This document shows, piece by piece, positions 187-43,921 of a stretch of DNA of 47,144 bases; the stretch's first letter is position 1, and each line of letters begins with the position of its first letter. The translations under genes and the position numbers were made by a program. The notes beneath the pieces were generated by a model. It worked only from the letters and a program-made list of their open reading frames with translations, ran no database searches and was not told the origin of the DNA. The stretch lies in contig CADDZO010000005.1 in assembly GCA_902812395.1 (NCBI GenBank), positions 1 to 47,144 of the forward strand. The letters run 5' to 3'. The DNA is from a bacterium (GTDB lineage Bacteria; Chloroflexota; Dormibacteria; Dormibacterales; Dormibacteraceae).

Positions 187-891
187 ATGAGCGGCGTCGT
201 ACTGAGGCGGGAGCTGGAACGGGTGCTGGCCCGGCGCCCGCTGCTGGCGATCAAGCTCGGCTTTCCGCTGGTGGTCGGGGTCCCGCTACTGCTGAGCGGC
301 GCTCCGGCCTTCGACCAGGCCATGGCCCTGGGGCTACTGGTGGCCATCGTGGGGGCGCTGGGATCCGGTGCCGTGCTTTGTCGGGAGCGTACGGCCGGCC
401 TGCTCCTGCGCGACCGCCTGCTGGCACTGCCGCCGCGGCTGGTCGCCCTCGAGCGGATCGGGGCTGCATCCCTGGTCGACCTGGCGCAGGTGGGTCCGGT
501 GCTGGTCCTGGCCTGTGCCCTCCACTTACGACCGGGATGGTGGCCGGCCATTTGGCTGGCTGCGGCCGGGAGTCTGGTCGCGGCCAACCTGCTGGGCGCA
601 CTGGCCACGACGCTGGCCACCTCGCCCGGCGAGGTGATGGTGCTCACGTTGTTTCCGTTGCTGCCCGTGCTCTATGCGTCGGGCCTGTTCGTGCCCCTGA
701 CCGGGGCGGGCCAGGTGGTGGAGCGGGCGCTTCCCTTCGCCTACCTTCAGCAGGCCCTGGCTGGGCTGCTAGGGGCGCCCCCTGCGCTCCTGTGGACGAC
801 GCCGCTCCAGGCGGCGTTGGGCGGGCTGGCCTGGGTGGTCGCCGCCCTGGGCGGGGTGGTCCTGGCCGGACGCCGGGTGGTGGAGACGTGA
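187..891 (+). CDS. ABC-2-type (possibly CcmB-like) membrane permease
   Basis: This 234-residue protein has about six hydrophobic segments and no long soluble domain, the size and layout of ABC-2 or CcmB-type permeases. A charged stretch near residues 60-80 (RERTAGLLLRDRLLALPPR) resembles the cytoplasmic loop of such permeases, and the C-terminal half has a further hydrophobic pair. It starts at ATG 187, just after the ATPase stop, and its TGA overlaps the GTG start of the CydA-like gene (GTGA, 888-891), so it is translationally coupled to the respiratory cluster. It could be a heme or cytochrome-assembly exporter. That is inferred from context only, because ABC-2 and CcmB permeases cannot be told apart here. 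Confidence 0.6.
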   Translation: MSGVVLRRELERVLARRPLLAIKLGFPLVVGVPLLLSGAPAFDQAMALGLLVAIVGALGSGAVLCRERTAGLLLRDRLLALPPRLVALERIGAASLVDLAQVGPVLVLACALHLRPGWWPAIWLAAAGSLVAANLLGALATTLATSPGEVMVLTLFPLLPVLYASGLFVPLTGAGQVVERALPFAYLQQALAGLLGAPPALLWTTPLQAALGGLAWVVAALGGVVLAGRRVVET

Positions 892-2132
892 TCTGGCTTC
901 AGAGCAACCCCCTGCTGCACCTGCCCAACATCCGGATCCCGGTGCTGGGCAACACCTGGCTGGTCGGCTTCCTGTTCCTTGCCCACATTCTCTTCGCCTC
1001 TTTCTCGATGGGAGTGGTGCTGCTCTCCCCGACCTACGAGCTGGTTGGCCATGTGCGCCAGAGCCGGGCCCTGGAACGGCTGGCCCAGGGCCTGGCCTCG
1101 GCCAATATCCGGGTGTTCAGCCTGGGGGCGACGCTGGGCGCCTTCGCCGTCTTCTCGCTGACCGGGCTGTACGGATCGGCCTTCATCCCCCTGGTGATCC
1201 GGCTCTGGGAGCCGATGTTGATCGCCTTCGTCAGCTGGTTCCTCACCATCCCTCTCCTGCTCGTCTACACCTATCGCTGGATCCAGATCTCGGAGCGGAC
1301 CAAGGCCGGCCACATCGCCCTCGGCTACCTGGGCGGGATCTCCGAGAACCTGTTCCTGTTCCTGATCGTGGGCCTGGACAGCTTCATGCTCACCCCCAAC
1401 TCCGGAGGCGGGTTCGGGGCACTGTTCAATGGCAGCTTCTGGCCCGAGTTCTTCCACCGCTTCACCGGGAACCTCTCCTGGGGCGCGCTGATGGTCGCCG
1501 GGGTGCTGATCGCCTGGCGTTCCTTCCACCGCGAGGAACGGGAGCGCGCCTACTACGCCTGGGCGGCCCGGGTCAGCCTGGGGGTGGGTGTGCTGCTGCT
1601 GGTGCCACAGGCGATCGAGGGCTGGTTCTTCGCCCGCTCCATCCTGCTCTCCTCCCCGGGCGCCTTCGTCAACTCCTTTGCCGGACCCTGGGCGCCGCTG
1701 TGGTTGGTTCAACAGTTCCTGGTGGGAGCGATCCTGGTCGCGGCCAACGTGTACCTGGCTCAGACCCGGGCCGGTCGGAGATGGCCGGGGATGGCGATCA
1801 CCGTGGCGGTGGTGCTGCTGGCGATCGGGACCGTACTCCCCGCCCCGGTCTACGGCAGCGTCTACTGGGTTCGCTACTTGCTGCTGGGCCTTGAGCTCCT
1901 GCTCACGCTGTTCCACTTCGGGGTCTGGAACCCGCTGCGGCGTTCTCGCCCCGAGCCGGGATGGAGTGGCCGGGCGGCGGTGGTCCTGGCAGGAGCCGCC
2001 GCGGTCATGGTCTTCCTGCTCATGGGGGTGATCCGAGAGACTGCACGCAATCCCTGGGTGGTCTATGGGCAGATCACCCAGGGGGCTGCCCAGAACCTGT
2101 ACCGGCCGCCTTCCCCCACCTTCTATCCGTGA
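888..2132 (+). CDS. CydA-like membrane subunit A (cytochrome bd superfamily, subunit I type)
   Basis: The protein has 414 residues from GTG 888, a start chosen because it overlaps the upstream stop as GTGA. It is a polytopic membrane protein with about nine helices. Resemblance to cytochrome bd subunit I is seen in three places: helix 1 with His33 (LAHILFASFSMG), a helix with Glu108 (LWEPMLIAF), and a helix with His190 (FFHRFTGNLSWGAL). These sit where CydA has heme ligands or channel residues. Near the C-terminus RETARNPWVVYGQI resembles the conserved GRQPW region. The second glutamate of the CydA channel and the methionine ligand of heme b558 are not evident. It belongs to a distant branch of the family that probably lacks a standard quinol loop. 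It is the first of two such genes flanking Rieske and cytochrome b. Confidence 0.75.
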   Translation: MIWLQSNPLLHLPNIRIPVLGNTWLVGFLFLAHILFASFSMGVVLLSPTYELVGHVRQSRALERLAQGLASANIRVFSLGATLGAFAVFSLTGLYGSAFIPLVIRLWEPMLIAFVSWFLTIPLLLVYTYRWIQISERTKAGHIALGYLGGISENLFLFLIVGLDSFMLTPNSGGGFGALFNGSFWPEFFHRFTGNLSWGALMVAGVLIAWRSFHREERERAYYAWAARVSLGVGVLLLVPQAIEGWFFARSILLSSPGAFVNSFAGPWAPLWLVQQFLVGAILVAANVYLAQTRAGRRWPGMAITVAVVLLAIGTVLPAPVYGSVYWVRYLLLGLELLLTLFHFGVWNPLRRSRPEPGWSGRAAVVLAGAAAVMVFLLMGVIRETARNPWVVYGQITQGAAQNLYRPPSPTFYP

Positions 2133-2139
2133 TGGAGCC

Positions 2140-2382
2140 ATGGGTCCCCTTCAGACGTACTTCTACCTGGCAGTCCTGGGAGGGCTGATGGTGGTGGGGG
2201 CCTTGCTCCTGGTCGCTCTGGCCGGGCCTCAGGTCCTGCGCCTGGCTCGCCGCGAGCGGGATCCCAGGGTGGCCCTGGCCGGCCTGCTGGTGGGAGCCGG
2301 CGTCTTCTGCTTCCTTTGCTTCTTCGTCCTGACCATCGTCGGTGCCACCATCTCGGTGGTCCTGGGGAACCATGTCCCCTGA
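2140..2382 (+). CDS. small membrane protein of the CydA-like/bc cluster
   Basis: This 80-residue protein starts at ATG 2140, 7 bases after the previous stop, and ends at the TGA at 2380-2382, 11 bases inside the Rieske gene. It has two predicted transmembrane helices: about residues 8-28 (LAVLGGLMVVGALLLVALAG) and about 50-74 (LLVGAGVFCFLCFFVLTIVG). A short basic loop (RLARRERD) lies between them. No cofactor-binding motif is visible. Being embedded in the operon with overlapping ends argues that it is a genuine small subunit of the complex, perhaps standing in for part of the missing CydB. I do not recognise a family. Confidence 0.7.
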   Translation: MGPLQTYFYLAVLGGLMVVGALLLVALAGPQVLRLARRERDPRVALAGLLVGAGVFCFLCFFVLTIVGATISVVLGNHVP

Positions 2383-2875
2383 CCGCCGCCTCTCCCGTCG
2401 CCGGTTCAACCTGCTCGGCACCCAGGCGGCTGGAGCGGCGATCGTCAGTGCCTTTCTGGCTCCGATCGTCGGCTGGGCCCTGTCTCCGCTCTTCCAGCCT
2501 CGGCCCACCTACGTCTGGCGCTCGATCGGGCGAGTGGACGACATCCCCCTGCTGACGCCCACCGCCCGCTCGGTCGAGTTCCCTCACTCCTCGCAGGCCT
2601 GGACACCGGAGTTGGACCGCTGGATCGTGTACGTAGTCCGCTACCCGGGCGGGGGACTCGGGACCTTCAGCAACATCTGCACCCACATGCAATGCCCGGT
2701 CCGCTGGGAGCCGGCGATCGGGCTGTTCCTTTGTCCCTGCCACGGCGGGCTCTACAACATCTACGGCACCAACGTGGGCGGCCCACCGCCGCTCCCCCTG
2801 CCCCAGTGGATCCATCGGATTGGGCCGGATGGGACGGTGATGGTTCAGGACCGCCTCGACGAGGAGCTGCCCTGA
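2372..2875 (+). CDS. Rieske 2Fe-2S protein of a bc-type complex
   Basis: The protein has 167 residues. The N-terminus carries a twin-arginine-like sequence (LSRRRFNLLG) followed by one hydrophobic helix (about residues 18-38), as in Rieske proteins exported by Tat and kept as membrane anchors. The cluster-binding motifs are complete: CTHMQC (Cys103, His105, Cys108) and CPCHGG (Cys121, Cys123, His124). Cys103, His105, Cys121 and His124 would bind the 2Fe-2S cluster, with Cys108 and Cys123 as the disulfide. A Pro-rich loop (GGPPPLPLPQW) follows. Its TGA overlaps the cytochrome b ATG (TGATG). It would take electrons from quinol at the Qo site of cytochrome b; its acceptor is unknown because no cytochrome c gene is nearby. 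Confidence 0.93.
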   Translation: MSPDRRLSRRRFNLLGTQAAGAAIVSAFLAPIVGWALSPLFQPRPTYVWRSIGRVDDIPLLTPTARSVEFPHSSQAWTPELDRWIVYVVRYPGGGLGTFSNICTHMQCPVRWEPAIGLFLCPCHGGLYNIYGTNVGGPPPLPLPQWIHRIGPDGTVMVQDRLDEELP

Positions 2876-4140
2876 TGTCCGAGAACAGGCGCCGCCTCAC
2901 CGATCCAGTCACCTCCGACAGCCAGGTTCGGGTCCGCAGCCTGCGCGGTCTCTCCCGAATCGCCTATGCCTGGCTGGACGAGCGCACCGGGATCCGCTCC
3001 ATGGTGCGCAAGGGTCTCTACGAGGCGGTGCCGCGGAGGGGGGCCTGGGCCTACACACTGGGCAGCGCCACCCTGCTGCTGATCGTCAACCAGCTGATCA
3101 CCGGCATCTTCCTGACCATGATCTACGTCCCCTCGACCACCGAGGGGTGGGAGAGTCTGAACTGGATCCGAGGCCACGACGAGTTCGCCTCGATTGTGCG
3201 CGGGATGCATCTGTGGGGCGCCTACGTCCTGCTCTTCGTGCTGGGCCTGCACATGGTGAGGACCTTCTTCTCGGGCTCCTACAAGCGGCCGCGGGAGACC
3301 AACTGGCTGAGCGGCGTCGTCCTGTTCGTCCTGGTCCTCGGGCTGTCCATCACCGGGGCCATGCTGCCATGGGATCAGGCTGCCTACTGGACCGCGGTGG
3401 TGGTCACCAACATCCCCTCCTATACGCCCATCATCGGCATCTATCTTCGCACCCTCTGGCGCGGAGGTGAGTTCGCGGGACCGATCACCCTGCTGCGCAC
3501 CTACGGCATCCACATCTGGATCCTGCCCGCGTTGCTGTTCGCTTTCATCGGGATCCACCTGTACCTGCTGCGCAAGCACGCCGAGTTCGGCTCTTACGTC
3601 AACTACAGAGGGTTCTTCCGGACCCTGCACCCACGACCTGTGATCCCGCCGGCGGAGCAACCGGCGTTGTCGGAGCCGGTCCCGCCCGGACAGCGGGAGC
3701 TGGAGCCGCCCTACCCGGGAGTCCCCACCGACGACGAGTGGGCGGCCCCGCTCGAGACCGATGACTTCTACCCCGACCAGACCTTCAAGGACGCGGTCGT
3801 CTCGCTGATCTGTATCGCCATCGTGTTCGCCTTTGGGATCGGGATCGGGGCGCCGCTGGAGGCGGCCGCCACCCAGAACACCACCACCTACACCCCGGTC
3901 CCGGAGTGGTTCTACCTGCCCTTGGACCAGCTGCTGGTCCTGGCCCCCAAGCAGCTGATCTCGCTGGCGCTCTGGGTGCCGCTCTTCGGGCTCTTGCTGC
4001 TGGTGATCCTCCCCTTCGTGGACCGAGGTCGCGAGCGCAATCCCTTCGAGCGACCGGCGGTGATGATCGTGGGGGGCCTGATCGTTCTCTTCATGCTGGT
4101 GCTGACCGCGCTGGGGTCGGGCCGGCTGTTCAACTTGTGA
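2875..4140 (+). CDS. cytochrome b (b6-type, fused N- and C-terminal halves)
   Basis: This 421-residue protein is the diheme quinol-oxidising subunit of a bc complex. The four heme ligands are visible: His112 and His126 (14 apart) and His213 and His228 (15 apart). The 15-residue spacing in the second helix is typical of cytochrome b6, whereas mitochondrial-type cytochrome b has 14. The Qo-site motif is PEWF (residues 343-346) where PEWY is usual. A long charged and Pro-rich linker (about residues 250-305) joins the heme-binding half to the subunit-IV-like half, so it is a full-length fused cytochrome b. Start ATG 2875 overlaps the Rieske stop. It lies centrally in a cluster flanked by two CydA-like genes. 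Confidence 0.93.
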   Translation: MSENRRRLTDPVTSDSQVRVRSLRGLSRIAYAWLDERTGIRSMVRKGLYEAVPRRGAWAYTLGSATLLLIVNQLITGIFLTMIYVPSTTEGWESLNWIRGHDEFASIVRGMHLWGAYVLLFVLGLHMVRTFFSGSYKRPRETNWLSGVVLFVLVLGLSITGAMLPWDQAAYWTAVVVTNIPSYTPIIGIYLRTLWRGGEFAGPITLLRTYGIHIWILPALLFAFIGIHLYLLRKHAEFGSYVNYRGFFRTLHPRPVIPPAEQPALSEPVPPGQRELEPPYPGVPTDDEWAAPLETDDFYPDQTFKDAVVSLICIAIVFAFGIGIGAPLEAAATQNTTTYTPVPEWFYLPLDQLLVLAPKQLISLALWVPLFGLLLLVILPFVDRGRERNPFERPAVMIVGGLIVLFMLVLTALGSGRLFNL

Positions 4141-4152
4141 GGTGCGTGAGGC

Positions 4153-5514
4153 ATGGTCGATCTCGCCATCCAGCTGCCGCCCCACTCGCCCGAGTTCGGT
4201 GGGCTGCTCGGCCAGCGGATCGCGATCGGGAGCAGCTTCGAAGCCCACATCCTGATCGCGGGTCTGGTCAGCGGGGCGTCACAGCTGGGGCCGATCACCG
4301 AGTGGGTTGGGTATATGCGCAGGCGGCCGGAGTACGATCGCCTGGCGCACGGCATCGCTCGTTTCCTCGTCTACTATTTCTCGATCGGTGCGGCGATTGC
4401 GATCCTGGTCATCACGGCTTTGCTGACCGGGCTCTGGGGCAGCGTCTGGGCGATCATCAACCGGGTCGGCTTCTGGCCCTTCTTCATCGAGGCATGGACC
4501 TTCTTCCTGATGGTCGTGGGAAGCTATCTCTGGTACTACACATGGGACTTGCTGCGCGACTACAAGGGCCTGCACATGGCCTTTGGCGGACTGCTGGCTG
4601 TGGCCTCGTTTGTCCAGGTCATGATGATCGATGTCATTGCCAGCTACATGCTCACTCCCTCGCAACCTAACAACCCACTGCGCGTTTTCCTCAACCCAAC
4701 GGAGTACCCGCTCCAGATCCACCGCACGGTTGCCAATTTGGCGTACATGGGCTTTGCTGTTGCCGCCTTCGCTGGCTTCCGCTACCTGCGCAGCAAGGAT
4801 GCAGCGAAGCGGGCCTTCTTCGACTGGGCGGGCAGCTACGGGATGATCTGGGGCATCGGGATGACGCTCATGCAGCCGATCGTCGGTTACAGCTATGCGA
4901 AGGAGATCCAGCTCCACGCCTATGGTGCCTGGTACAAGATGATGCAGGGGACGCTCAGCTCCGAGTTCCTGGGACAGATCTTCCTCTTGGGGCTGATGTT
5001 CCTGGCCGGCAGCTACTATTTCTGGCGCCGGCTGCATGCCTCCAACGCCCCCAACCAGGGCCTTCTTGGCCTGCTCACGGTGCTCCTGGCGGTAACCACG
5101 GTCTTCGCCACGTTGCCGGCTCACCTGGCCTTCACGTACAACCAGGTACTGGCCTCGGGCAAAGACCGTCCCTTCTGGGAAGGGGGCTGGGTCAACCCGT
5201 TCGCTGCCATGATCCCTTACAAGGTGGGGGCACTGATCGCCTACAGCGTCTTCGCCATTGCCGGGCTCTACTGGTACCTGCGCGGACAGCGCGAGGTGGT
5301 ATGGGGGACGGCTAGGGCCGTTGAGCAATGGGTGCTCATCGCATCGGTGTTCATGGTCGCGGCCATGATCGTGCTGATGGGCTTCATCCGCGAGAACTCC
5401 CGGTATCCAGATGTGATCGCGGGCCAGGTCCAGCTCTCTCACCAGCAGGTTCTCTCTCAGCAGCTGATCAGCCCGGTGACCGGCCTGAGCGGCACCCTGC
5501 CTCCGCCGCCGTGA
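4153..5514 (+). CDS. CydA-like membrane subunit B (cytochrome bd superfamily, subunit I type)
   Basis: The protein has 453 residues from ATG 4153, 12 bases after the cytochrome b stop, and about nine transmembrane helices. As in subunit A, three candidate ligand positions recur: His32 (FEAHILIAGLVSG), Glu113 (FFIEAWTFFLM) and His190 (YPLQIHRTVANLAYMG). Glu113 sits in a FIEAWTFF context closer to canonical CydA (EGLMAFFLES) than subunit A does. The C-terminus has GFIRENSRYPDVIAGQ, matching the conserved CydA region after the quinol loop. It is paralogous to the gene at 888-2132 but clearly diverged. Two CydA-type subunits without a CydB suggest a CydA-CydA' heterodimer. Whether it reduces O2 or only transfers electrons cannot be decided from sequence. 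Confidence 0.78.
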   Translation: MVDLAIQLPPHSPEFGGLLGQRIAIGSSFEAHILIAGLVSGASQLGPITEWVGYMRRRPEYDRLAHGIARFLVYYFSIGAAIAILVITALLTGLWGSVWAIINRVGFWPFFIEAWTFFLMVVGSYLWYYTWDLLRDYKGLHMAFGGLLAVASFVQVMMIDVIASYMLTPSQPNNPLRVFLNPTEYPLQIHRTVANLAYMGFAVAAFAGFRYLRSKDAAKRAFFDWAGSYGMIWGIGMTLMQPIVGYSYAKEIQLHAYGAWYKMMQGTLSSEFLGQIFLLGLMFLAGSYYFWRRLHASNAPNQGLLGLLTVLLAVTTVFATLPAHLAFTYNQVLASGKDRPFWEGGWVNPFAAMIPYKVGALIAYSVFAIAGLYWYLRGQREVVWGTARAVEQWVLIASVFMVAAMIVLMGFIRENSRYPDVIAGQVQLSHQQVLSQQLISPVTGLSGTLPPPP

Positions 5515-5873
5515 GCCGCTTGCTGCTGGCCGAGCTGGCCCTGACGCTGGCGCTGGCCGCCTGCACCGACTACAGCTCGCTCGCCTCGTACCAGGTTCCG
5601 GGAGCGGTCACCGTCCACATCGTCGGCTCGCCGGAGACTGTGGACGCCTATCAACCCCAGGTGGTGCAGGTGCGAGCAGGGCAGCGGGTGGTCTGGGTCA
5701 ACGCCACCGGCGATTACGATACCGTCACCTTCATCTCCCCCGGCCTCCCCTCCAGCCGCGGCATCCCGCCCGGAGGCACCTTCGCGGTCGTCTTTCGGCA
5801 TCCCGGCACCTATCGCTACTACTCCAGCTACAACTCGGGCGAGGTCGGGGCGGTGGTCGTGGGGAAGAGGTAG
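5511..5873 (+). CDS. cupredoxin-fold lipoprotein lacking copper ligands
   Basis: The protein has 120 residues from GTG 5511, which overlaps the upstream TGA (GTGA). A lipoprotein signal peptide ends in LALAAC, with Cys18 as the lipidated residue. The rest follows plastocyanin-like proteins: VRAGQRVVWVNATGDYDTVTF, then GGTFAVVFRHPGTYRYYSS and EVGAVVVG. In copper proteins the pattern is H-T-V in the first strand and C-x2-H-x2-M in the last loop. Here the four positions are Asp70, Ser105, Asn108 and Glu111, so no type 1 copper site can form. It probably serves as a structural or docking subunit of the bc/CydA-like complex on the outer face of the membrane. Confidence 0.78.
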   Translation: MSRLLLAELALTLALAACTDYSSLASYQVPGAVTVHIVGSPETVDAYQPQVVQVRAGQRVVWVNATGDYDTVTFISPGLPSSRGIPPGGTFAVVFRHPGTYRYYSSYNSGEVGAVVVGKR

Positions 5874-5876
5874 CAG

Positions 5877-6245
5877 ATGGCGACCATGCGTCTTCGCCTC
5901 TACCAGCGTCCGTTGGAGGAGCTGCGGCAGACCGTTGAGGGCGATGTCCCGCGCTGGGTTCAGCGCATCTACCAGAGCTACGGACGCACGGTCGCGGATG
6001 CACCTCTCTCCGCCTGCGTGGAGGCGCTGGCGGAGGGCCTGGGCAGCCGGCTGGCGCACCTTGCGCTGCTCCTCCGCAAGTGCGAAAGCCATGGTTGGAC
6101 GGTGACGGTGGACGAGGATACCCTCCTCGTGCATACCGGCCTGGACATCGAGCGCTCGCGTCGCCGGCTGGAGGACGATGGAGTCTGGATTCTGGCCCAG
6201 CAGATGGCCGAGCGTGGTCCCGACGGTGAGGTGGCGTGGCGCTGA
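5877..6245 (+). CDS. hypothetical protein at the end of the respiratory cluster
   Basis: This 122-residue soluble protein has no signal peptide or transmembrane segment. It starts at ATG 5877, 3 bases after the previous stop, with a purine-rich AAGAGG upstream, so it is probably co-transcribed with the cluster. It is rich in Arg, Glu and Leu and looks mainly alpha-helical in its first 90 residues (VEALAEGLGSRLAHLALLLR). I do not recognise a family. It ends 5 bases before the convergent Crp-type gene. An assembly or regulatory role for the complex is possible but only by position. Confidence 0.55.
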   Translation: MATMRLRLYQRPLEELRQTVEGDVPRWVQRIYQSYGRTVADAPLSACVEALAEGLGSRLAHLALLLRKCESHGWTVTVDEDTLLVHTGLDIERSRRRLEDDGVWILAQQMAERGPDGEVAWR

Positions 6246-6250
6246 GCGGC

Positions 6251-7600
6251 TTAACCCTCGAGCAGCGCTGCCAGCGCCCCGGGATCGATGACCTGGACAC
6301 AGCGCGGGAGAACGCGGATGACACCCCGGCCCTGGAGCCGGTGGAGCAGCTTGGTCACGGTCTCTCGTGAGGCCCCGACCAGGTCCGCCAGCTCCTGATG
6401 GGTAGCCACGAGCCGGCCGTCCTCGGATCGGCGCCGGCGGAGGAGGGCCAGGGCGAGACGGTCGGCCACCGAGTGATAGGCCAGATACTCGAGGCGCTCC
6501 TCTGCTTCTCCCAGCCGCCGGCTCAAGGTCGCAGCCAGCTCGATGGCCAGGCTCGGGCGCCGTACGGACAGCTGCTCGAGATGGGACCAGGTGAAGAGAT
6601 GGACCTGGCACGGTTCCGCCACCTCGGCCACGCCGCTCCGCAGCCGCTCCGAGGTGAACAGGCCCGGGGCTTCGATCGAGTCCAGCTCGAGCCGGTGGCC
6701 GGAGGGGGTGAGCCGGACCAGCCGCACCCTCCCCCGAGCCACCAGGTAGAGCCAGACCGGGGGTGGGGCCGCGGTCAGCGAGGTGCCCTGGTCCAGCACC
6801 AGCTGCCGTGGAGGAGGGTGAAGGCGCTCCAGTTCGCCCGGGTCGGCCAGCGCCGCGGCCAGGTCCTGGGGTGGAGTCGGTGCCGGCTGGGAGGGCGGAG
6901 CCTGGAGCGTGGACCGGATCCGGCTCTCGACTGCCACGCGCTGGCCGTCGGCCTCGGCGTAGGGTGCGAAGAGGTTGGGCAGGCGGCGGCCGTGCTGGAA
7001 TGGCTGGAGCAGGATGTGGCGGCCACGGGACCGGGCCACGTGGTCGGCACCGATCGCACCGACAGAGGCGCCGTCACAGGCGGGATCGGCGGGGAGCCAG
7101 CCCTGCGGAGGTACGAACACCTCTGCCCAGTGGTGGGAGACCGCGACCCCGGCGCCACTGCTTCCGACCAGGACCCGGTGGCCAGACACCAGGCGCGCCC
7201 TCAGGCTGGCCCGGCGGCAGAGTCGGATCAGCGCCTCCGGCCGTTCGGGGACGGGTTGGCGACGGGCCTGGAACAGCAGCTCGGTCGCCTGGCGGAGCAG
7301 ATCCGGTGCCTCGGCCGACGACGGCGGCGGCGGCGAGTGGATGCGGAGGAGGTAAGAGACGGTGAAGCCAAGGCGGTGAGTACGCGGACAGCGAAGGTAC
7401 AGGATCGGGTTGCCATGCTCGGGGTCGTGCAGCAGCCGGACGGGCGGCTCCATATCCCAGGCCAGGTCCAGGACTTGCTGGCGAGGGTCGTCCTCGATCA
7501 GCGGATACCAGAGTTCAAGGATGCCCGCCGATGCCGGCAAGGAGGAGATGGCTACCCGTTCGGTCAGGCCGATGATCAGCGGCTCGTCACCAGCATCCAT
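6251..7600 (-). CDS. transglutaminase-like domain fused to a Crp/Fnr-type regulator
   Basis: The protein has 449 residues. Residues about 10-90 form a beta-rich domain like the N-terminus of bacterial transglutaminase-like proteins (DPRQQVLDLAWD, HGNPILYLRC). Residues about 100-225 continue the fold: RLVSGHR, SHHWAEVFVPPQGWLPADP (His157, Asp172) and a PYAEADGQRV tail. The catalytic Cys expected about 20 residues before the RARLVSG strand is missing; Val118 or Pro119 falls there. Residues about 260-380 are a cyclic-nucleotide-binding-like domain and about 395-435 a Crp winged helix (THQELADLVGASRETVTKLL). It is therefore a probable transcription regulator with a catalytically dead peptidase-like sensor domain. 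It is divergent from a response regulator 32 bases away and convergent with the respiratory cluster, which it may control. Confidence 0.85.
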   Translation of the reverse strand: MDAGDEPLIIGLTERVAISSLPASAGILELWYPLIEDDPRQQVLDLAWDMEPPVRLLHDPEHGNPILYLRCPRTHRLGFTVSYLLRIHSPPPPSSAEAPDLLRQATELLFQARRQPVPERPEALIRLCRRASLRARLVSGHRVLVGSSGAGVAVSHHWAEVFVPPQGWLPADPACDGASVGAIGADHVARSRGRHILLQPFQHGRRLPNLFAPYAEADGQRVAVESRIRSTLQAPPSQPAPTPPQDLAAALADPGELERLHPPPRQLVLDQGTSLTAAPPPVWLYLVARGRVRLVRLTPSGHRLELDSIEAPGLFTSERLRSGVAEVAEPCQVHLFTWSHLEQLSVRRPSLAIELAATLSRRLGEAEERLEYLAYHSVADRLALALLRRRRSEDGRLVATHQELADLVGASRETVTKLLHRLQGRGVIRVLPRCVQVIDPGALAALLEG

Positions 7601-12729: not shown

Positions 12730-13743
12730 TCATGAAATGGTGGGTGGCACCAGCATCTTATGGATCGCCGGCTGGTCCATATTTGCCTTGGTAGCGACGA
12801 TCGACCCAGTGTCGACGAAGTGAGGGACCGGCTTATGCTCGATCAAGTCGACCACTTCTTGTACCCCAAGGTACCCGATTCGGTAGGGGTTCTGGACGAT
12901 CAGTGCCGAGACCTGGCCAGCGGCCAGTGCGCTCACCTCGTCGGGGGCATTGTCGAATCCGACCACCTTGACCTTGCCGATCAGTCCCCGTTCCAGCAGC
13001 GCATGGACGACGCCGATCACGCCCGGCTCGTTGGCGGCGAACACGCCCTTGAGGTTGGGATCTGCGGTGAGGATGTTCTCCATCTCCGACAGTGCGGTGT
13101 TGATGTCGCTCTGGTCGTACTGAACGGCGACGAGGTGAATGTTTGGATACTTCTTGAGCTCTTGCTCGAACCCCTGCTGGCGCTGGATCGAGGTCGCTGC
13201 CGAGGGGACGAACGGCAGCAGCGCGACATCCCCCTGATAGCCGATCTGCTGGGCGAGGATATCGGCCGCCTTGGCCGCGGCGGCGACGTTATCGGTCGCA
13301 ACCAGCGGCGGCGTCTGGGGCGACAGCCCGGAGTCAATGTTGACAACAGGAATGCCAGCCTTCTTTGCTGCCAGATAGGTGCCGTAGAGACCGTGGGCAT
13401 CGGTTGCGGCGAAAGCGATTCCGTTGACGTGCTTGTTGATGAAGTCTTGGAGGATGTTGACCTGGCCGGAAACGTCAGTCTCCGTCTCAGTCCCCTTCCA
13501 GACGATGTTGACCCCCAGCGCTTTGGCAGCGGCCGCGGCGCCGGCATGGACTGTGCCCCAGTAGAACAGCCCAACCGACTTTGGAACCACCGCGATCGTG
13601 TACTTTCCCCCGCCGCTACTCGAGGTAGCGGTCGAGCTGCCACACGCGGCGATCATCAACGCCGCGACGATTGAGAGCAGGGCAGCCCCGACGCTTCGGG
13701 GTCGACGACCCGAAGCGATGGGGTTGTGCCGGTCCTGACTCAT
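12730..13743 (-). CDS. sugar ABC transporter substrate-binding lipoprotein (RbsB family)
   Basis: The protein has 337 residues from ATG 13743, chosen because GGAGGT lies 10 bases upstream; earlier in-frame starts have no such site. A lipoprotein signal ends in LMIAACGSS. The mature part follows the type 1 periplasmic-binding fold: YTIAVVPKSVGLFYWGTVHAG, VNGIAFAATDA, AGIPVVNIDSG, GVFAANEPGVIGVVHAL, KVVGFDNAPDE. These match ribose/galactose-type binding proteins. It is encoded 35 bases after the permease and delivers sugar to the RbsA/RbsC-type transporter. Confidence 0.92.
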   Translation of the reverse strand: MSQDRHNPIASGRRPRSVGAALLSIVAALMIAACGSSTATSSSGGGKYTIAVVPKSVGLFYWGTVHAGAAAAAKALGVNIVWKGTETETDVSGQVNILQDFINKHVNGIAFAATDAHGLYGTYLAAKKAGIPVVNIDSGLSPQTPPLVATDNVAAAAKAADILAQQIGYQGDVALLPFVPSAATSIQRQQGFEQELKKYPNIHLVAVQYDQSDINTALSEMENILTADPNLKGVFAANEPGVIGVVHALLERGLIGKVKVVGFDNAPDEVSALAAGQVSALIVQNPYRIGYLGVQEVVDLIEHKPVPHFVDTGSIVATKANMDQPAIHKMLVPPTIS

Positions 13744-13778
13744 GTCTGTGCGCACCTCCATTGACATAGGTTGGTGGA

Positions 13779-14792
13779 TCATCGGCTCTGTAGAGCTCGC
13801 CTCCGGACCTGGTCATACGCCACTGCGGCGATGATCACCACTCCGAGGATGAAGTTCTGCCAGAAGTTGGAAATGTTCAGTAGGTCACCTCCATTCGAGA
13901 TGAGTTCCATCAGTAGTGCTCCAATCAAGCCGCCAATCACAGTCCCTTCGCCGCCGAAGAGGCTGGCGCCGCCAATGACCACCGCCGCGATGGCGTCGAG
14001 GTTGTAGTTCACTCCTGCCGCCGGGTCGCCGGTGACCACCCGGCTGGCCACGATCACGCCGCCCAGGCCCGCCAGCAGGCCCTGGATCACATAAACGGCG
14101 ATCAGGACCCGATCGACACGAATGCCTGAGAGGCGGGCTGTCTCATAACTCGAGCCGATCGCGTAGGCGCTGCGGCCCAGCGTCGTCCGGGAGAGGATGA
14201 ACCAGCCCACCGCGGCGACGATCGCCATCAACACGATTGGGACCGGGATCGGACCCACCTGCCCATCGCCCAGCACGTCGAAGCTTGTCGGTGCCGCGAT
14301 CGGCTGTCCGTTGGTGATCAGTAAGGCAATCCCTCCGACGGCGCTCAGCGTGCCGAGCGTGGCGATGAAGGGAGGGAGATGCACCTTGGTCACAAGGACC
14401 CCGTTGATGACCCCGACTCCGCCGCCCACCAGTACGCCGACAGCCATCCCCAGGGGAATGCTCCAGTGGTCGTTGACGACAACCATGGTCGACAGCACTC
14501 CCGAGAGAGCCACCACGCTGCTGACCGAAAGATCGATTCCAGCGGTGATGATCACCATCACCTGGCCGACGGCCAGGATCGCGATCACCGACATCTGCAC
14601 GAATACGGCTGAGATGTTGGTGATGGTCAGGAAGTGGGGCGAGGCGATCGTCAGGGCACCGCCGAGCACGAGCACGAACAGGAAGGGGCCGAGCTGCTCG
14701 AGCAGCCGTCGGATCCAGGCTCGGCGATACGGTTCGCCTGCCTCGATCGCTGCGTGTCCGGGCGCCGGTTCCGCCATCTGCGCATCGGTCAT
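13779..14792 (-). CDS. sugar ABC transporter permease (RbsC family)
   Basis: The protein has 337 residues with about nine or ten transmembrane helices. The diagnostic RbsC segment AVGQVMVIITAGIDLSVSSVVALSGV is visible near residue 80, and NLDAIAAVVIGGASLFGGEGT in the C-terminal third. Its ATG overlaps the stop of the ATPase gene (ATGA, 14789-14792), so translation is coupled. It forms the membrane channel with the RbsA-type ATPase. Confidence 0.94.
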   Translation of the reverse strand: MTDAQMAEPAPGHAAIEAGEPYRRAWIRRLLEQLGPFLFVLVLGGALTIASPHFLTITNISAVFVQMSVIAILAVGQVMVIITAGIDLSVSSVVALSGVLSTMVVVNDHWSIPLGMAVGVLVGGGVGVINGVLVTKVHLPPFIATLGTLSAVGGIALLITNGQPIAAPTSFDVLGDGQVGPIPVPIVLMAIVAAVGWFILSRTTLGRSAYAIGSSYETARLSGIRVDRVLIAVYVIQGLLAGLGGVIVASRVVTGDPAAGVNYNLDAIAAVVIGGASLFGGEGTVIGGLIGALLMELISNGGDLLNISNFWQNFILGVVIIAAVAYDQVRRRALQSR

Positions 14793-16342
14793 CTGGACGA
14801 CGAACCTCCTGGGGTTTGGACACTCGTCCGTTCCTGGCCAGTGGCTGCGAACATCAGATCCTCCTGTGTCGCCTCACCACGCATGAACTCAGCGACGATG
14901 GCTCCCCGGCGCATCACGAGGATCCGGTCGCTCATCCCGAGTACCTCGGGCAGATAGGAAGACAGCAGGATCACCGCCTTTCCCTGTTTGGCCAGCCGAT
15001 TGATCAGGCGGTAGATCTCCACCTTTGCCCCTACATCGATCCCGCGAGTGGGCTCGTCCAGGATCAACACCTCGACTCCAGCAGTCACCCACTTGCCGAG
15101 CACCGTCTTCTGCTGGTTGCCGCCGCTCAGCATCGCTACCCGTTGATCGAGTGAGGGGGTAACGATCCGGAGGGCCCGGACGATCCCTTCTGCCGACCGC
15201 CGCTCCTCGCCCCGTTTGAGGATCCCGGCACGTGAAAACTGTGGTAGGGATGCCAGCGTCAGGTTGTTAGCGACGCTGAGCAGCCCGGCCAACCCGCTCC
15301 GCCGCCGATCGTCAGAGAGGTAGCCGATGCTGTGGTTGATGGCGGCCTGCGGGTTGCGGATGCGAACCGGCCGACCACGGCGGTAGATGGTGCCCGACTC
15401 GACCGGGATCGCACCGATGATGGCGTGCATGAGCGCGGTACGGCCAGCGCCGAGCAGGCCCGCAAACCCGAGCACCTCCCCGGCCCGCACCGAGAAGCTG
15501 ACCTCGGTCCGCTTGCCCTGCACCTTGAGCTTCTCGACCCGCAGGAGCTCATCGCCCAGCGGTGCCGGTTCCTTGGGGAACATCTCCACCAGCGGGCGGC
15601 CGACCATCAGCCTGACGAGCTCATCAGCAGTGGTGCGGGCAACCTCTCGTTCTCCAGCGAACTCGCCGTCACGCAGGACGGTTACCCGGTCGCATAGCTC
15701 GAGGATCTCCTCGATCGTGTGCGAGATGTACACGATGGCTACGCCCTGCGAGCGCAGGTCGCGCAAGACCCTGAAGAGCTCCGCCACTTCGGTCTCGGTC
15801 AGAGCCGAGGTGGGTTCGTCCAACGCCAGCACCTTCACCTGCTGCGAGAGCGCTTTGGCGATCTCGGTCATCTGCTGCTGGGCGATCGTGAGCTCGCTGA
15901 CCCGTGCCCGTAGCGGCAACTGGATCTTGAGCCGCTGGAGAACCTCGCTCGCGTCGCGGTGTAGCCTCCGCCAGTCCACGATCCCGGGGCCGCGGGTGGG
16001 GAGCCGGCCGATGAACAGGTTCTCGGCGACGCTCAGATGAGGCGCCAGGCTGGTCTCCTGGTAAACGATCGCGATCCCGTGGCTTAAGGCGTCGGTCGGA
16101 CTAGCGATCCTCACCTCCTTGCCGTCCAGCAAGATCCGTCCGTCATCCTTGCGCTCGGCGCCGGCCAGGATCTTCATCAGCGTCGACTTCCCGGCGCCGT
16201 TCTCCCCCAGCAATGCGTGGATCTCCCCGGCCGCGACAGTGAAGTCGACACCCTTGAGTGCCTGGACGCCAGGGAAGTGGCGCTGAATCCCAAGCATCTC
16301 AACGGTCGGTGCGGCAGTCGCAGACGGTGCGGTGGCAGTCAT
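14789..16342 (-). CDS. sugar ABC transporter ATP-binding protein (RbsA/MglA family, two NBDs)
   Basis: The protein has 517 residues and two tandem ATPase domains, as in RbsA, AraG and MglA. The first has a canonical Walker A (GENGAGKST), the signature-like LTIAQQQMTEIAKAL and Walker B VLALDEPTSAL. The second has the degenerate P-loop usual in this family (GLLGAGRTAL), the signature LSGGNQQKTVLGKW and Walker B VLILDEPTRGID. Its start overlaps the kinase stop (ATGA, 16339-16342). It powers import of the sugar used by this operon. Confidence 0.95.
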   Translation of the reverse strand: MTATAPSATAAPTVEMLGIQRHFPGVQALKGVDFTVAAGEIHALLGENGAGKSTLMKILAGAERKDDGRILLDGKEVRIASPTDALSHGIAIVYQETSLAPHLSVAENLFIGRLPTRGPGIVDWRRLHRDASEVLQRLKIQLPLRARVSELTIAQQQMTEIAKALSQQVKVLALDEPTSALTETEVAELFRVLRDLRSQGVAIVYISHTIEEILELCDRVTVLRDGEFAGEREVARTTADELVRLMVGRPLVEMFPKEPAPLGDELLRVEKLKVQGKRTEVSFSVRAGEVLGFAGLLGAGRTALMHAIIGAIPVESGTIYRRGRPVRIRNPQAAINHSIGYLSDDRRRSGLAGLLSVANNLTLASLPQFSRAGILKRGEERRSAEGIVRALRIVTPSLDQRVAMLSGGNQQKTVLGKWVTAGVEVLILDEPTRGIDVGAKVEIYRLINRLAKQGKAVILLSSYLPEVLGMSDRILVMRRGAIVAEFMRGEATQEDLMFAATGQERTSVQTPGGSSSR

Positions 16343-17910
16343 CGTCCTGCCTCTCCATCGAGCCGGGCTGCGGTCCGGGAGCCAGCCTGGTGCGGCTGGA
16401 GGTCAACCTGGGCCGCGGCCAAGTTCCGACCTTGCAGCTGAATCCGGGCCAGCCTGTGGGCTAGCTCGCGCGTGGCCGGGTACAGCTCCCGGTAGGCGGC
16501 GTACAGCTCATCGTAGAGGGGACGGCGTTCCGTGTCCGGATGGACCTTCTCGACGATCGGGTTCCAGGGCGAGCCGAGCTCCACCAGTCCGGCCGCCGCG
16601 CCAGCGAGTTGCGCGTCGCCGTAGCTGGCGCCGATCGTGAGCCTCGGGAGTTCCTGCGGCCTGCCCGTGACATCCGAGACGATTTGCGTCCACAGACCGC
16701 CTCGCGTCCCACCGCCCACGGCTACGATGCGTTTCGGATTGCCTCCGGCAAGCTCCATAGTCTCGAGGTTGTGACGCACTCCGAAGGCGGTTGCCTCGAG
16801 GAGCGCCCGGTAGAGATGGCCGCGTCCATGGGTGAGGGTGAGACCGGCCACCACACCGCGCGCTTGCGGATCGAACAACGGCGTCCGCTCACCCGCGAAA
16901 TACGGAAGCACTACCAATCCATCAGCACCAGCTGCGATGCCCGACGCCTCGTGGATCAGCTGCTCAAATGGCGGATGGCCCGCCAGCTCGCGCAGCCAGG
17001 CGGTGAGGGCGCCGGACGTGGCCATGCCGGCAGCGATGGTGGGGGAGCTCGGGGTAACGCCTGCGGTTAGCCAGAGCATGCCGTTGGGACGCGCACCGGG
17101 GGCGACGAGGACGATGAACATCGTCGTCCCGTAGGCGAGCATCATGTCTCCTGCGGTGAGCACTCCGGCACTCACCGATTCGGCCCAGGCATCGATCGTG
17201 CCGGCGGCAACGGGGATTCCAGCTGGGAGTTTGGTTTCCGCTGCGGCAGTGGCGGTCAGCACTCCGGCCGCCTCTCCTGGCCACAACAGCCGTGGAAGCT
17301 CGAGGCCGGGAGCGATCTCATCGGCCCAGTCATCCCGCCAGCGCCCCGAATCGAGGTCATAGAGCGGGTTGCACTGGCTGGCTGAGTGGTGGTCGAGGAC
17401 GTACTCGCCGGTCAGTCGTTGCACGGCAAACGAACTCGCCATCAGCAGCCGCTCGGTCTGTCTCCAGACCTCGGGCTCGTGGCGACGCAGCCACAGGATT
17501 TTCGGCCCGACCGCCTGGGAGGTGAGCGGAGAGCCGCCCGAGCTGAGGATTGCGGCTGTTCCATAGCGTGTGGTTAGCTCCTGTACCTCAGCCACCGCGC
17601 GGGTGTCGATCCCGTAGAGGATGGCCGGCCGCAGCGGGCGGCCCGCGCGGTCTGCCGGAAGCAGGCACGGGCCGATGCCGCTTACACAGACACCGCGGAC
17701 GGCAGCCAGCGCTGGCTCCTCAAACTCGTGTACAAGGGCGCAGAAATCTCCCCACCAGATTTCTTCGGCATCGTGCTCGACCCACCCGGGATGCGGGAAG
17801 GAGAGTGGATGCTCGCGCTGCGCAGTAGCCACCACCGTCCCGTCGGCTTGGGCCAGAACGGCTTTCGAGCTCGAGCTGCCGATGTCAAGACCGAGCAGCA
17901 GTTCTTCCAT
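16339..17910 (-). CDS. FGGY-family carbohydrate kinase
   Basis: The protein has 523 residues. The N-terminal phosphate-binding motif LLLGLDIGSSSSKAVL and the later GTIDAWAESVSAGVLTAGDM and YGTTMF segments are typical of FGGY kinases. PYFAGERTPLFDPQARGVVAGL and the adenine-binding VAVGGGTRGGLWTQIVSDV follow in the C-terminal half. Related enzymes phosphorylate L-fuculose, D-xylulose or similar ketoses; the adjacent isomerase should supply the substrate. It starts 1 base after the lacI stop. No aldolase for the next step is encoded in the window. Confidence 0.92.
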   Translation of the reverse strand: MEELLLGLDIGSSSSKAVLAQADGTVVATAQREHPLSFPHPGWVEHDAEEIWWGDFCALVHEFEEPALAAVRGVCVSGIGPCLLPADRAGRPLRPAILYGIDTRAVAEVQELTTRYGTAAILSSGGSPLTSQAVGPKILWLRRHEPEVWRQTERLLMASSFAVQRLTGEYVLDHHSASQCNPLYDLDSGRWRDDWADEIAPGLELPRLLWPGEAAGVLTATAAAETKLPAGIPVAAGTIDAWAESVSAGVLTAGDMMLAYGTTMFIVLVAPGARPNGMLWLTAGVTPSSPTIAAGMATSGALTAWLRELAGHPPFEQLIHEASGIAAGADGLVVLPYFAGERTPLFDPQARGVVAGLTLTHGRGHLYRALLEATAFGVRHNLETMELAGGNPKRIVAVGGGTRGGLWTQIVSDVTGRPQELPRLTIGASYGDAQLAGAAAGLVELGSPWNPIVEKVHPDTERRPLYDELYAAYRELYPATRELAHRLARIQLQGRNLAAAQVDLQPHQAGSRTAARLDGEAGR

Positions 17911-30714: not shown

Positions 30715-32460
30715 CTACCCGGGCCGGCCCCCGGGGTCCTGCCCGGGGAGCCCCTCGCCGTCCTGGGCCCGTTCGGGTCCGGGCACCAGCCGGCCCTCCC
30801 GCCAGGCACAGCCGTAGGCGCCCAGGCCCTCCTCGGTGATCAGGCCCTGGGCCAGATCGGCCTCGATCTCGGCCAGTGGCCGCTCGAGCGGCGATCCGTA
30901 GCCGCTGCCGCCGCCCAGCTCCAGGGTGAGGCGCGCCTTGGGGGTGGGCAGCTCGGCCAGCCCGCCCACCTCCTCGCCGGCCAGGCGCCGGCCGTCCTCG
31001 TCCAGCACGATGCCGGCCCGGCGCCCGCTCCACCCGCCGGCCAGGCCGGGGGTGTCGAACCGGATGCCCTGGGGGAGCAGGCTCACCAGGACGGTCCGGC
31101 CGTCGTCGGCCAGTTTGCGCACCGAGACCCGCTGGCCGAGGCCGCCCCGGTGGCGTCCCGGTCCACCGCTGTCGGGGATGAGCTCCTTCACCTCCACCAG
31201 CAGCGGCGTCCGGCTTTCGAACATCTCGACCGAGGTGTTGGCGGCCGAGGTGGGATAGAGCAAGGCGCTCTTGCCGTCGGCGGCCGCGCTCGCCCCCTGA
31301 CCTCCGCCCTGGAACAGGTGGTCGTTGAAGATCCGGCCGTCGGGCTCGGTCCCGTAGGCACCCAGCGACATCGGCATCCCGGTGAAGCTCTGCACCCGCT
31401 CCGGGAGCACTGGGGCCAGGGCCCGGAACAGGGCCGGGGCCAGATACCAGCCGGTCATGGTGCGCACGTTGACCGGGGCTGGGTAGCGGCAGTTGAGGAT
31501 GCTGCCCGGCGGAGCCGAGACCGAGAGCGGCCGGAAGCAGCCGGCGTTGGAGGGGGTGTCGGGGGTGAGGATGCACTTCAGCGCGTAGACGGTGTGGGCG
31601 GCGGTGTAGCTGAGCGTGCAGTTGACGCCCCCCCGCTCCACCTGGGGCGGTGCCTCGACCCAGTCGGCGGCCATCTCGTCGCCTCGGACCTTCACCCGGA
31701 CCCGGAGCCGGCCGACCGATTGCAGGGTATCGACCGGGACCTCCCCCTCGTAGGTGCCGGGGGGCAGGGCGGCGATGGCCGTGCGCATGGCCGCCTCGGA
31801 CCGCCGCTGCACGGTGCGGGCGAGATCGGTCAGGTCCGGGAGCCCGTACTCGTCCATGAACTCCAGCAGCCGGTGGGCGCCCACCTGGTTGGCCGACAGC
31901 TGGGCCTGGACGTCGCCCAGCACCATCTGGCCCTTGCGCACGTTGCGCTCGATCACGGCCAGCACCTCGCGGTTGGGTTCGCCCCGTCGGTGGAGCTTGA
32001 TGGGCGGGATCTGCAGGCCCTCCTCGTAGATCTCCCGCACCGACAGCGGATCCCGGCTGCCGCCGACGTCGGAGCAGTGGGCGATCGACCCCACCAGCCC
32101 CACCAGCTGCCGCCCCCGGAAGACGGGGGTGACCAAAGCCAGGTCGAAGAGGTGGCCGGCGCAGATCCAGGGATCGTTGGTGGCCAGCACGTCGCCGGGT
32201 TCCAGGCGATGGGGCGGGAAGACCCGCAGCAGCTCCTCCACCGCCCGAGGCAGGGTGAGGTTGAAGACCGGCATCGAGCGGGGCGAGTGGGCGAGCGAGC
32301 GGCCCTCTGCGTCGAGCAGCTCGCAGCCGAAGTCCTGGGCCTCGCCGACGATCATGCTGAAGGCGGTCCGCCAGATCGTCACCCAGCACTCCTCGGCGAT
32401 GTTGATCAGGCGTTGCCAGAGGATCTCTAGCCCGACCGGGTCCTCGAGGTCCGCTCTCAC
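30715..32460 (-). CDS. hyuB: hydantoinase/oxoprolinase B-type subunit (HyuB), copy 1
   Basis: The protein has 581 residues from GTG 32460, which overlaps the hyuA stop (GTGA). Family features include FGCELLDAEGRSLAHSPRSM, VLATNDPWICAGHLFDLALV, a GSIAHCSDVGG region with His/Asp metal-ligand candidates, GGVNCTLSYTAAHTVYALKC, NAGCFRPLSV and the Gly-rich LIPDSGGPGRHRGGLGQRV near the C-terminus, ending with GGGSGYGSPLERPLAEIEADL. With HyuA it forms an ATP-dependent cyclic-amide hydrolase (N-methylhydantoinase/5-oxoprolinase type). It differs well from copy 2 at 38450-40189, so the two pairs should have different substrates. Confidence 0.9.
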   Translation of the reverse strand: MRADLEDPVGLEILWQRLINIAEECWVTIWRTAFSMIVGEAQDFGCELLDAEGRSLAHSPRSMPVFNLTLPRAVEELLRVFPPHRLEPGDVLATNDPWICAGHLFDLALVTPVFRGRQLVGLVGSIAHCSDVGGSRDPLSVREIYEEGLQIPPIKLHRRGEPNREVLAVIERNVRKGQMVLGDVQAQLSANQVGAHRLLEFMDEYGLPDLTDLARTVQRRSEAAMRTAIAALPPGTYEGEVPVDTLQSVGRLRVRVKVRGDEMAADWVEAPPQVERGGVNCTLSYTAAHTVYALKCILTPDTPSNAGCFRPLSVSAPPGSILNCRYPAPVNVRTMTGWYLAPALFRALAPVLPERVQSFTGMPMSLGAYGTEPDGRIFNDHLFQGGGQGASAAADGKSALLYPTSAANTSVEMFESRTPLLVEVKELIPDSGGPGRHRGGLGQRVSVRKLADDGRTVLVSLLPQGIRFDTPGLAGGWSGRRAGIVLDEDGRRLAGEEVGGLAELPTPKARLTLELGGGSGYGSPLERPLAEIEADLAQGLITEEGLGAYGCAWREGRLVPGPERAQDGEGLPGQDPGGRPG

Positions 32461-34532: not shown

Positions 34533-35533
34533 GGCCTGGCCGTCACCAGCTCACCGGGGAAGTGGCAGGCCACACGGTGTCCGGGACCCCGCTCCTCGAG
34601 CCGGGGCTCTACCTCGGCGCACCGCTCGCGGTCCTTGCCCACCGGGCAGCGCGAGCGGAAGCGACAGCCGCGATGGTCGGTCAGCACCGGCACCTCACCC
34701 TCCAGAATGATGCGGCCCTGGCGGCGGCGGCGGCCAGGCTCGGGGATCGGCACACCCGAGAGCAGGGCGTTGGTGTAGGGGTGGAGCGGGCGGCGGAACA
34801 GCTCCTCGCGGCCGGCCAGCTCCATCACCGCCCCCAGGTAGAGCACCGCCAGCCGGTCGCAGAAGTACTCCGCGATCGCCAGGTCGTGGACGATGAAGAC
34901 GTAGGTCAGGCCCAGCTGCTCCTGGAGGTCGCGGAGAAGGTTCAGGACCTGGGCCTGGATCGACACGTCGAGGGCCGAGATGGGCTCGTCGAGAACCACC
35001 AGCTCGGGCCGCAGCACCAGGGCGCGGGCGATGGCAATGCGCTGGCGCTGTCCGCCGGAGAGTTCGTGCGGCCGGCGGTCGCGGTAGGTGGCCTCGATCC
35101 CGACCAGCTCCAGGGTGGCATCCACCTGGGCCTGGCGTTCCTCCCGGCTGCCGATGCCGTGGACGAAGAGCGGCTCCTCCACGATCTGGGCGATCGACAT
35201 CCGGGGATCGAGCGAGGCGAAGGGGTCCTGGAACACGATCTGCATCCGCCGCCGCAGCGCCCGCATCTCGGGCGGCCGCAGCCGCCCGAGATCGACACCG
35301 TCGAAGATCACGCGCCCCGCGGTCGGCTCGATGAGCCGCAACAGGCAGCGGGCAAGCGTGGATTTGCCGCATCCGGACTCGCCCACCAGGCCGAAGGTCT
35401 CGCCCCGGGCGACCTGGAAGGACACCCCATCGACCGCCCGGATCACGAGCGGCCGGCTCCACGGTCCGCGGCGGATCACGAACCGCTTCTCCAGTGCCTC
35501 CACCTGGAGCAGCGACGCCTGGTCCCGGCTCAC
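34529..35533 (-). CDS. dppF: oligopeptide/dipeptide ABC transporter ATPase (DppF/OppF type)
   Basis: The protein has 334 residues from GTG 35533, overlapping the dppD stop (GTGA). Walker A GESGCGKST, signature LSGGQRQRIAIARAL and Walker B LVVLDEPISALD are complete. The C-terminal RRPLHPYTNALLSGVPIPEP and the cysteine region CRFRSRCPVGKDRERC are typical of the Opp/Dpp ATPases, where the Cys cluster can bind Fe-S. It works with DppD. Confidence 0.95.
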   Translation of the reverse strand: MSRDQASLLQVEALEKRFVIRRGPWSRPLVIRAVDGVSFQVARGETFGLVGESGCGKSTLARCLLRLIEPTAGRVIFDGVDLGRLRPPEMRALRRRMQIVFQDPFASLDPRMSIAQIVEEPLFVHGIGSREERQAQVDATLELVGIEATYRDRRPHELSGGQRQRIAIARALVLRPELVVLDEPISALDVSIQAQVLNLLRDLQEQLGLTYVFIVHDLAIAEYFCDRLAVLYLGAVMELAGREELFRRPLHPYTNALLSGVPIPEPGRRRRQGRIILEGEVPVLTDHRGCRFRSRCPVGKDRERCAEVEPRLEERGPGHRVACHFPGELVTARP

Positions 35534-36525: not shown

Positions 36526-36527
36526 GC

Positions 36528-37550: not shown

Positions 37551-37559
37551 CGTCTGCCT

Positions 37560-42228: not shown

Positions 42229-42237
42229 CCCCAGCTC

Positions 42238-43851: not shown

Positions 43852-43921
43852 GCCGTTGGCTCCCTCCGCTCGTACCCGGCCAAGCGACATCGAGCCTGCC
43901 GGGATGTGTTCTGCATTTCCT

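Follow-up and report, generated by a model that had tools for sequence, protein, structure and literature searches.

The locus described here raises the question of how a cytochrome bc complex could deliver electrons to oxygen when its genes lie between those of two CydA-like proteins, termed A and B, and the operon encodes neither a cytochrome c nor CydB. The operon is located in the window, the 47,144-nucleotide stretch of DNA that was analysed (positions 1 to 47,144 of contig CADDZO010000005.1, assembly GCA_902812395.1 of a soil bacterium of the Dormibacteraceae), which constitutes contig 5 of a 3.83 Mb draft genome that is 96% complete. From the gene sequences and their distribution, an even chance may be given to the reading that the bc complex feeds an OR-N5-type CydAA' oxygen reductase without cytochrome c, the whole forming one respiratory module in which electrons would probably pass directly from the Rieske protein.

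Gene organisation of the operon

The genes between 187 and 6245, from an ABC-2 permease to a 122-aa protein, are arranged head-to-tail with short overlaps and gaps of at most about 12 bases. The core operon occupies 888–5514 and comprises CydA-like A, a two-helix protein, a Rieske protein, a b6-type cytochrome b and CydA-like B. As the window begins at base 1 of the contig, the genes upstream of the permease are not visible beyond a terminal remnant. The features are the following:

1–182, + strand: C-terminal part of the gene that precedes the ABC-2 permease, truncated by the contig start and open to a stop at 180–182; relatives carry an ABC ATPase here
187–891, + strand: ABC-2 type permease subunit (PF01061, 38.7 bits), a recurrent operon neighbour in three Dormibacteria families
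888–2132, + strand: CydA-like A, GTG start (PF01654, 43.0 bits; tree, residue table and AF2 model)
2140–2382, + strand: small two-helix membrane protein of 80 aa, whose position between A and Rieske is conserved
2372–2875, + strand: Rieske [2Fe-2S] protein with a twin-arginine-like N-terminus (PF00355; CTHMQC...CPCHGG complete)
2875–4140, + strand: cytochrome b, b6-type, with fused C-terminal part (PF00033, 140 bits; PF00032, 26 bits)
4153–5514, + strand: CydA-like B, the probable O2-reducing subunit (PF01654, 46.8 bits; residue table and AF2 model)
5511–5873, + strand: cupredoxin-fold lipoprotein without copper ligands (PF13473, 27.5 bits), overlapping B by 4 bases
5877–6245, + strand: 122-aa protein of unknown family, with homologues directly after B in many Dormibacteria operons

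Both A and B score above the PF01654 cut-off of 26.2 bits, and no NCBIfam model recognises either protein. The CXXCH motif is absent from every protein of the operon (888–5514 and neighbours), A and B are devoid of any cysteine, and among the long open stretches of the window the motif occurs once, in the wrong frame within gene A. No c1 or f gene and no CydB is present within the operon, and Pfam searches detected no CydB next to A or B or between them. The tightly overlapping operon described in an earlier note on this DNA, and the lack of CXXCH, c1 gene and CydB that it reported, are therefore borne out by the Pfam families, the overlaps and the reading of the sequence. A search of plasmid records returned no match.

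The same note had counted a cupredoxin-like lipoprotein among the operon genes. The overlap with B and a PF13473 score just over the cut-off of 27.0 bits agree with this description, but the type-1 copper positions, where His, Cys, His and Met are expected, are occupied by Asp, Ser, Tyr/Asn and Glu/Val, and no counterpart exists downstream of B in the closest relatives (L051–L063), as far as their sequence reaches. Having no copper ligands and not being a conserved member, the lipoprotein was rejected as the electron carrier of the operon. The 122-aa protein has no Pfam or NCBIfam match, and its homologues follow B in L036–L039, L043, L044 and many of L065–L096.

The ABC-2 permease adjoins the operon in L035, L053–L061, L063, L067, L081, L083–L085, L090 and L095, with the order ATPase, permease, A in L035, whose ATPase belongs to PF00005, and in most of L053–L063. 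A pair formed by a DrrA-like ABC ATPase and an ABC-2 permease is placed upstream of the operon in families f1 and f3 and downstream in f2 (L035:4392-5989, L067:10244-11949, window:1-891). The permease, together with the ATPase, is possibly an assembly, export or heme-related factor. A large protein of 650–870 aa with Usp domains also lies beside operons (L035:6042-8558 on the minus strand, L040, L042–L044, L053–L063, L067, L081, L083, L085 and L090), and the L035 protein contains five PCP_red (protochlorophyllide reductase 57 kD subunit) stretches; shorter Usp relatives adjoin other OR-N type CydA genes (L045–L048). In the window, the operon is adjoined on the opposite strand by a gene for a 449-aa protein (6251–7600, minus strand) that combines a transglutaminase-core-like region with a Crp-family cNMP/HTH regulator. 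Two further clusters on the minus strand, at 12730–17910 and 32457–44430, are ordinary catabolic ones: a sugar ABC transporter is encoded with an FGGY carbohydrate kinase, and a family 5 solute-binding protein with hydantoinase/oxoprolinase A and B.

Conserved residues and predicted structure of A and B

The roles of the E. coli CydA residues are known from the bd literature. When aligned with canonical sequences, all complete B proteins retain the equivalents of E. coli His19, Glu99, His186, Glu445 and Arg448, and His32, Glu113, His190, Glu414 and Arg417 of B are invariant in 28 of 28 sequences. The A protein of the window displays His33, His190, Glu384 and Arg387, with Ala113 at the position equivalent to Glu99. 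The active-site histidine (E. coli His19) is common to all A and B, whereas the Glu99 equivalent is found in every B and in no A, where Ala mostly takes its place; the Glu445 equivalent is kept in 15 of 21 A. The Glu107 equivalent is Glu or Gln in most B and Met120 in B of the window. Among the residues that had been singled out as conserved beforehand, the first-helix histidines (His33 and His32), His190 of both proteins and Glu113 of B stand, while Glu108 of A was rejected as a catalytic residue, since a single one of 30 A sequences has Glu at this position, which is five residues ahead of the Glu99-equivalent column.

The columns of the quinol-site residues Lys252 and Glu257 are gaps in all 20 B rows and in 19 of 21 A rows. 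Similarly, the column of the heme b558 ligand Met393 is occupied by Leu in nearly all A and B sequences. AF2 models of A and B reached pLDDT values of 89.9 and 80.7, respectively, and the best PDB matches of both are CydA chains, at modest TM-scores of 0.45–0.63 that leave the details of the C-terminal half uncertain. A and B belong to the cytochrome bd superfamily as CydA-like proteins. Judged by sequence, they are not a canonical CydAB, as CydB, the Q-loop Lys/Glu and the His/Met heme b558 are all absent, and the residues retained by B suggest that it is probably the O2-reducing subunit.

Family placement of A and B

In a tree of 55 sequences, none of them archaeal, A and B form two clades (support 99/94 and 94/95, respectively) that are sisters (94/88) and lie far from canonical CydA. 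A pair of CydA-like proteins linked to ActABCDE in Nitrospira falls inside both clades, A with A and B with B, on long branches. The genes upstream of this Nitrospira pair correspond to alternative complex III (ACIII): they encode a protein with five CXXCH motifs, one with a molybdopterin domain, an NrfD protein and a fusion of ActD with cytochrome c. Nitrospirales ACIII clusters followed by an OR-N5-type CydAA', with ActF and ActG missing, have been described (PMC12342949). A and B are thus best filed, by their position in the tree, as OR-N5-type CydAA', a label that derives from PMC12342949 and not from the defining tree of Murali 2021. The suspicion of the earlier note that a known distant family was at hand is correct for A and B, since the CydA pair itself, by sequence, is not new and corresponds to the ACIII-linked OR-N5 CydAA' of Nitrospira; for the whole module it does not hold, as far as found. 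The note had also considered a characterised quinol-oxidising subfamily; what was found instead is that both proteins match PF01654 and group with the OR-N5 pair, without the quinol residues.

The other CydA-like proteins sampled from Nitrospira form a clade of their own, with longer chains and with other residues in the Glu99 and Glu445 columns, Ser in the latter. In Nitrospira G151 (L118:3-3204, L124, L107 and L122) such proteins of 560–670 aa carry Ser at the Glu445 position, and one of their genes lies just after a cytochrome b C-terminal part. This adjacency suggests that bc and CydA-like genes may be linked in OR-N1/N2 too. In other Chloroflexota, single CydA-like genes (L045:1565-3649 and L047:2658-4759) are directly followed by a membrane cytochrome c with one CXXCH, an arrangement fitting a cytochrome c donor.

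The Rieske–cytochrome b part

The cluster ligands and the disulfide cysteines of the Rieske protein are invariant over 11 aligned sequences. In cytochrome b, His112, His126, His213 and His228 are invariant with the 14/15 spacing of b6, a PEWF motif is present, and the best NCBIfam score is that of a cytochrome b6 model. The heme c_i position (Cys35 of b6f) is Thr, Ser or Ala in the operon cytochromes b and Cys in the other b6 of the window genome. By its predicted Rieske cluster ligands and four cytochrome b histidines, the bc part is of the bc1/b6f kind, and its gene content indicates that it has no c1, f or other c-type heme subunit. Ahead of helix 1, the small proteins have a Q-[TA]-x-[FW]-Y-like motif in common.

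When compared with three other bc complexes encoded in the same genomes, the operon cytochromes b form a group of their own (87/91), recovered in 90% of bootstraps. The subgroups within it correspond to those seen for A and B, which speaks for joint inheritance.

Distribution and gene order

A search of 151 genomes of the phylum recovered the pair in several families of the class and also outside it, and the loci that were read display the order A, small protein, Rieske, cytochrome b, B. Scanning public genomes with a B profile, followed by gene calling with our own profiles, yielded 48 loci: 37 are complete A-Rieske-cytochrome b-B operons, 8 are cut by contig ends, 2 belong to Nitrospira and have ACIII genes where bc would be, and in 1, from a Rubrobacter MAG, a second B stands alone. 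The loci derive from Chloroflexi soil MAGs, Candidatus Dormiibacterota, one Actinobacteria genome, Rubrobacter and Nitrospira. The complete operon is present in Dormibacteria/Chloroflexota and in Actinomycetota. In the Actinobacteria operon, an ActD-like origin of the gene before A was unsupported (E 0.029, with a weak YflT match instead). The earlier proposal that the bc complex and the CydA pair act as one functional unit is well supported by this gene order, kept across phyla, and by the matching groups in the A, B and cytochrome b trees.

Lineages without cytochrome c assembly

In the known bacterial systems, the attachment of c hemes depends on proteins of PF01578 (CcmC, CcmF, CcsA). In Dormibacteria family f4, B or its partner A is matched in 18 of 18 genomes and PF01578 in none of these 18; similarly, the genus to which the Rubrobacter MAG belongs has a match to B or A in all 10 genomes and to PF01578 in none of the 10. 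One genome of this Rubrobacter genus carries A-Rieske-b6-IV-B on a 4.16 Mb contig, so that incompleteness is an unlikely cause of the missing PF01578 there, and no CXXCH ORF occurs in the 18 kb around this copy. Neither the four f4 genomes tested nor the Rubrobacter MAG yielded a PF13442 cytochrome c, and in these four f4 genomes the operon cytochrome b is the only strong bc-type cytochrome b. These lineages, which keep the pair without c-heme assembly, support the claim that no c-type cytochrome is needed.

Family searches, on which the genome-wide statements about the window genome rest, located on its other contigs one membrane-anchored PF13442 cytochrome c, two c-assembly matches, a second bc complex, COX1 genes and two complete CydAB pairs. 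An ordinary chain completed just outside the window, an outcome that the earlier note had named as a refutation, was not seen, because the cytochrome c, the second bc complex and the CydAB pairs lie on those other contigs; the contig edge hides the upstream side.

Proposed electron path

A tentative reading, held at a little below an even chance, is a quinol-to-O2 supercomplex that contains non-covalent hemes and one Rieske cluster as its only cofactors, in which a c1-less bc complex hands electrons directly to CydAA'. At the same strength, CydAA' would replace both cytochrome c and the heme-copper oxidase and serve lineages unable to make c-type cytochromes. Menaquinol would give up its electrons at the Qo site of cytochrome b; one would descend hemes bL and bH in a Q cycle, and the mobile head of the Rieske protein would deliver the other directly to a b heme on the periplasmic side, ligated by His190 of A or B. 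From there electrons would reach the active-site hemes of B, where O2 would be reduced to water, and A would probably replace CydB as structural partner and electron entry. Such a path would require no c-type cytochrome; its least certain step is the Rieske handover, which could be direct or pass via a cupredoxin. Genes of one operon need not form one complex. Further points that weigh against this path are the Leu in place of the b558 ligand Met in A and B, Met120 at the Glu107 position in B of the window, the cytochrome c and c-heme assembly genes of the window genome, and the cytochromes c and blue-copper lipoproteins of some relatives.

Carriers and alternative assignments

The handover is also where the strongest alternative, rated as rather unlikely, departs from the supercomplex: bc and CydAA' would be linked by a small diffusible or lipid-anchored carrier encoded elsewhere, which would differ by lineage: for f4 and Rubrobacter a cupredoxin, for Nitrospira ActE, and for the window genome and Chloroflexi of the FK_Sedi type a cytochrome c. 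Archaea without cytochrome c use sulfocyanin or halocyanin. Candidate carriers are indeed encoded with or near the operon, since a 201-aa cytochrome c directly follows B in a Chloroflexi MAG (L041/L088), an ActDE fusion with cytochrome c is present in Nitrospira (L093/L094), and f4-type loci display cupredoxin lipoproteins with intact type-1 copper sites, ending YCTLHPGMxGxV and often situated 1–6 kb from the operon on the other strand. PF00127 is found in 12 of 13 genomes tested, cytochrome-c-free ones included, and the window genome (G000) has the membrane-anchored cytochrome c mentioned above. One genome of family f4 also encodes a CuA-type COX2 (L136:539-1396, plus strand; CYEFCGVGHDQM) although the family has no c-heme assembly, and this CuA oxidase presumably takes electrons from a cupredoxin. 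The f4 cupredoxins, PF00127 and the CuA oxidase together make a copper carrier plausible there, and possible for A and B. OR-N enzymes have moreover been proposed to be cytochrome c oxidases (PMC10839748). In contrast, no single carrier is conserved with the operon, and none is encoded just downstream in the closest relatives of the window. The window genome has no PF00127 protein, its operon-linked cupredoxin fold lacks copper ligands, and cupredoxins are not specific, as they are also present in genomes with cytochrome c.

Two independent enzymes on one transcript, with the bc complex serving a heme-copper oxidase and A/B acting as a quinol oxidase whose quinol site has been relocated, are improbable. 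COX1 is present in all Chloroflexota genomes of the set, and the archaeal CydAA' of Caldivirga is reportedly a quinol oxidase. Nevertheless, the genes are interleaved (A, bc, B) across phyla rather than placed side by side, all parts appear to be co-inherited, and virtually all A and B are without the quinol-site residues. The two genomes of Rubrobacter type that were tested, G152 and G153, carry the operon without a COX1 match, and thus have no visible heme-copper oxidase for the bc complex to serve, while in Nitrospira this pair is combined with another quinol oxidoreductase, ACIII. Very improbable is that A/B are not an oxygen reductase and form a heme-b relay replacing cytochrome c1, from Rieske to another acceptor such as a CuA oxidase, for although A has no Glu99 equivalent, neither protein has the b558 Met, other Nitrospira CydA-like proteins have Ser at the Glu445 position and f4 genomes combine a CuA oxidase with the lack of c-heme assembly, the five B residues are kept in 28 of 28 sequences and G152 and G153 retain the operon with no heme-copper oxidase to receive the electrons.

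Comparison with known respiratory systems

Quinol oxidoreductases of the bc and ACIII types feed heme-copper oxidases through c-type hemes or copper. The Sox-type chains of archaea combine a Rieske-cytochrome b with sulfocyanin and have no cytochrome c1 or c, as here, and differ from the operon in their heme-copper terminal oxidase and blue copper carrier. No description of the bc/CydAA' operon was found in the full-text literature searched, which did not cover Murali 2021, where such clusters may be mentioned. A conserved pairing with the bd superfamily would imply that bd-type enzymes can end an energy-conserving Q cycle, with more protons per electron than plain CydAB. It would also supply a definite electron donor for the OR-N enzymes, which are poorly understood, and it points to lineages without c-heme assembly, including Rubrobacter, a genus with cultured members.

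Canonical CydAB quinol oxidases (qOR) share the CydA fold and the active-site residues with B and possess Q-loop residues, the b558 Met and CydB, whereas A and B of the operon are without all three. The mycobacterial bcc-aa3 and bacterial ACIII-aa3 supercomplexes connect a quinol oxidoreductase to a terminal oxidase without a soluble carrier (PMC4505504), as is proposed here. In contrast to these systems, which use c-type hemes and a heme-copper oxidase, the present one is predicted to have no c heme and to end in a bd-superfamily oxidase. The OR-N1/OR-N2 CydAA' of Nitrospina and Nitrospira (PMC10839748, PMC3578206) are also CydA-like pairs without quinol residues for which a non-quinol donor has been proposed; they differ in forming a separate clade of longer proteins with other residues at the Glu99 and Glu445 columns, judged by the Nitrospira proteins sampled, and their proposed donor is cytochrome c. 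Finally, the Nitrospirales OR-N5 CydAA' (PMC12342949) resembles the present pair in that A and B each group with one of its members, in the absence of CydB and in being encoded with a quinol oxidoreductase. In Nitrospira an ACIII (ActABCDE) with c-type hemes precedes A and B, whereas here a Rieske/b6 complex without c-type heme is encoded between them.
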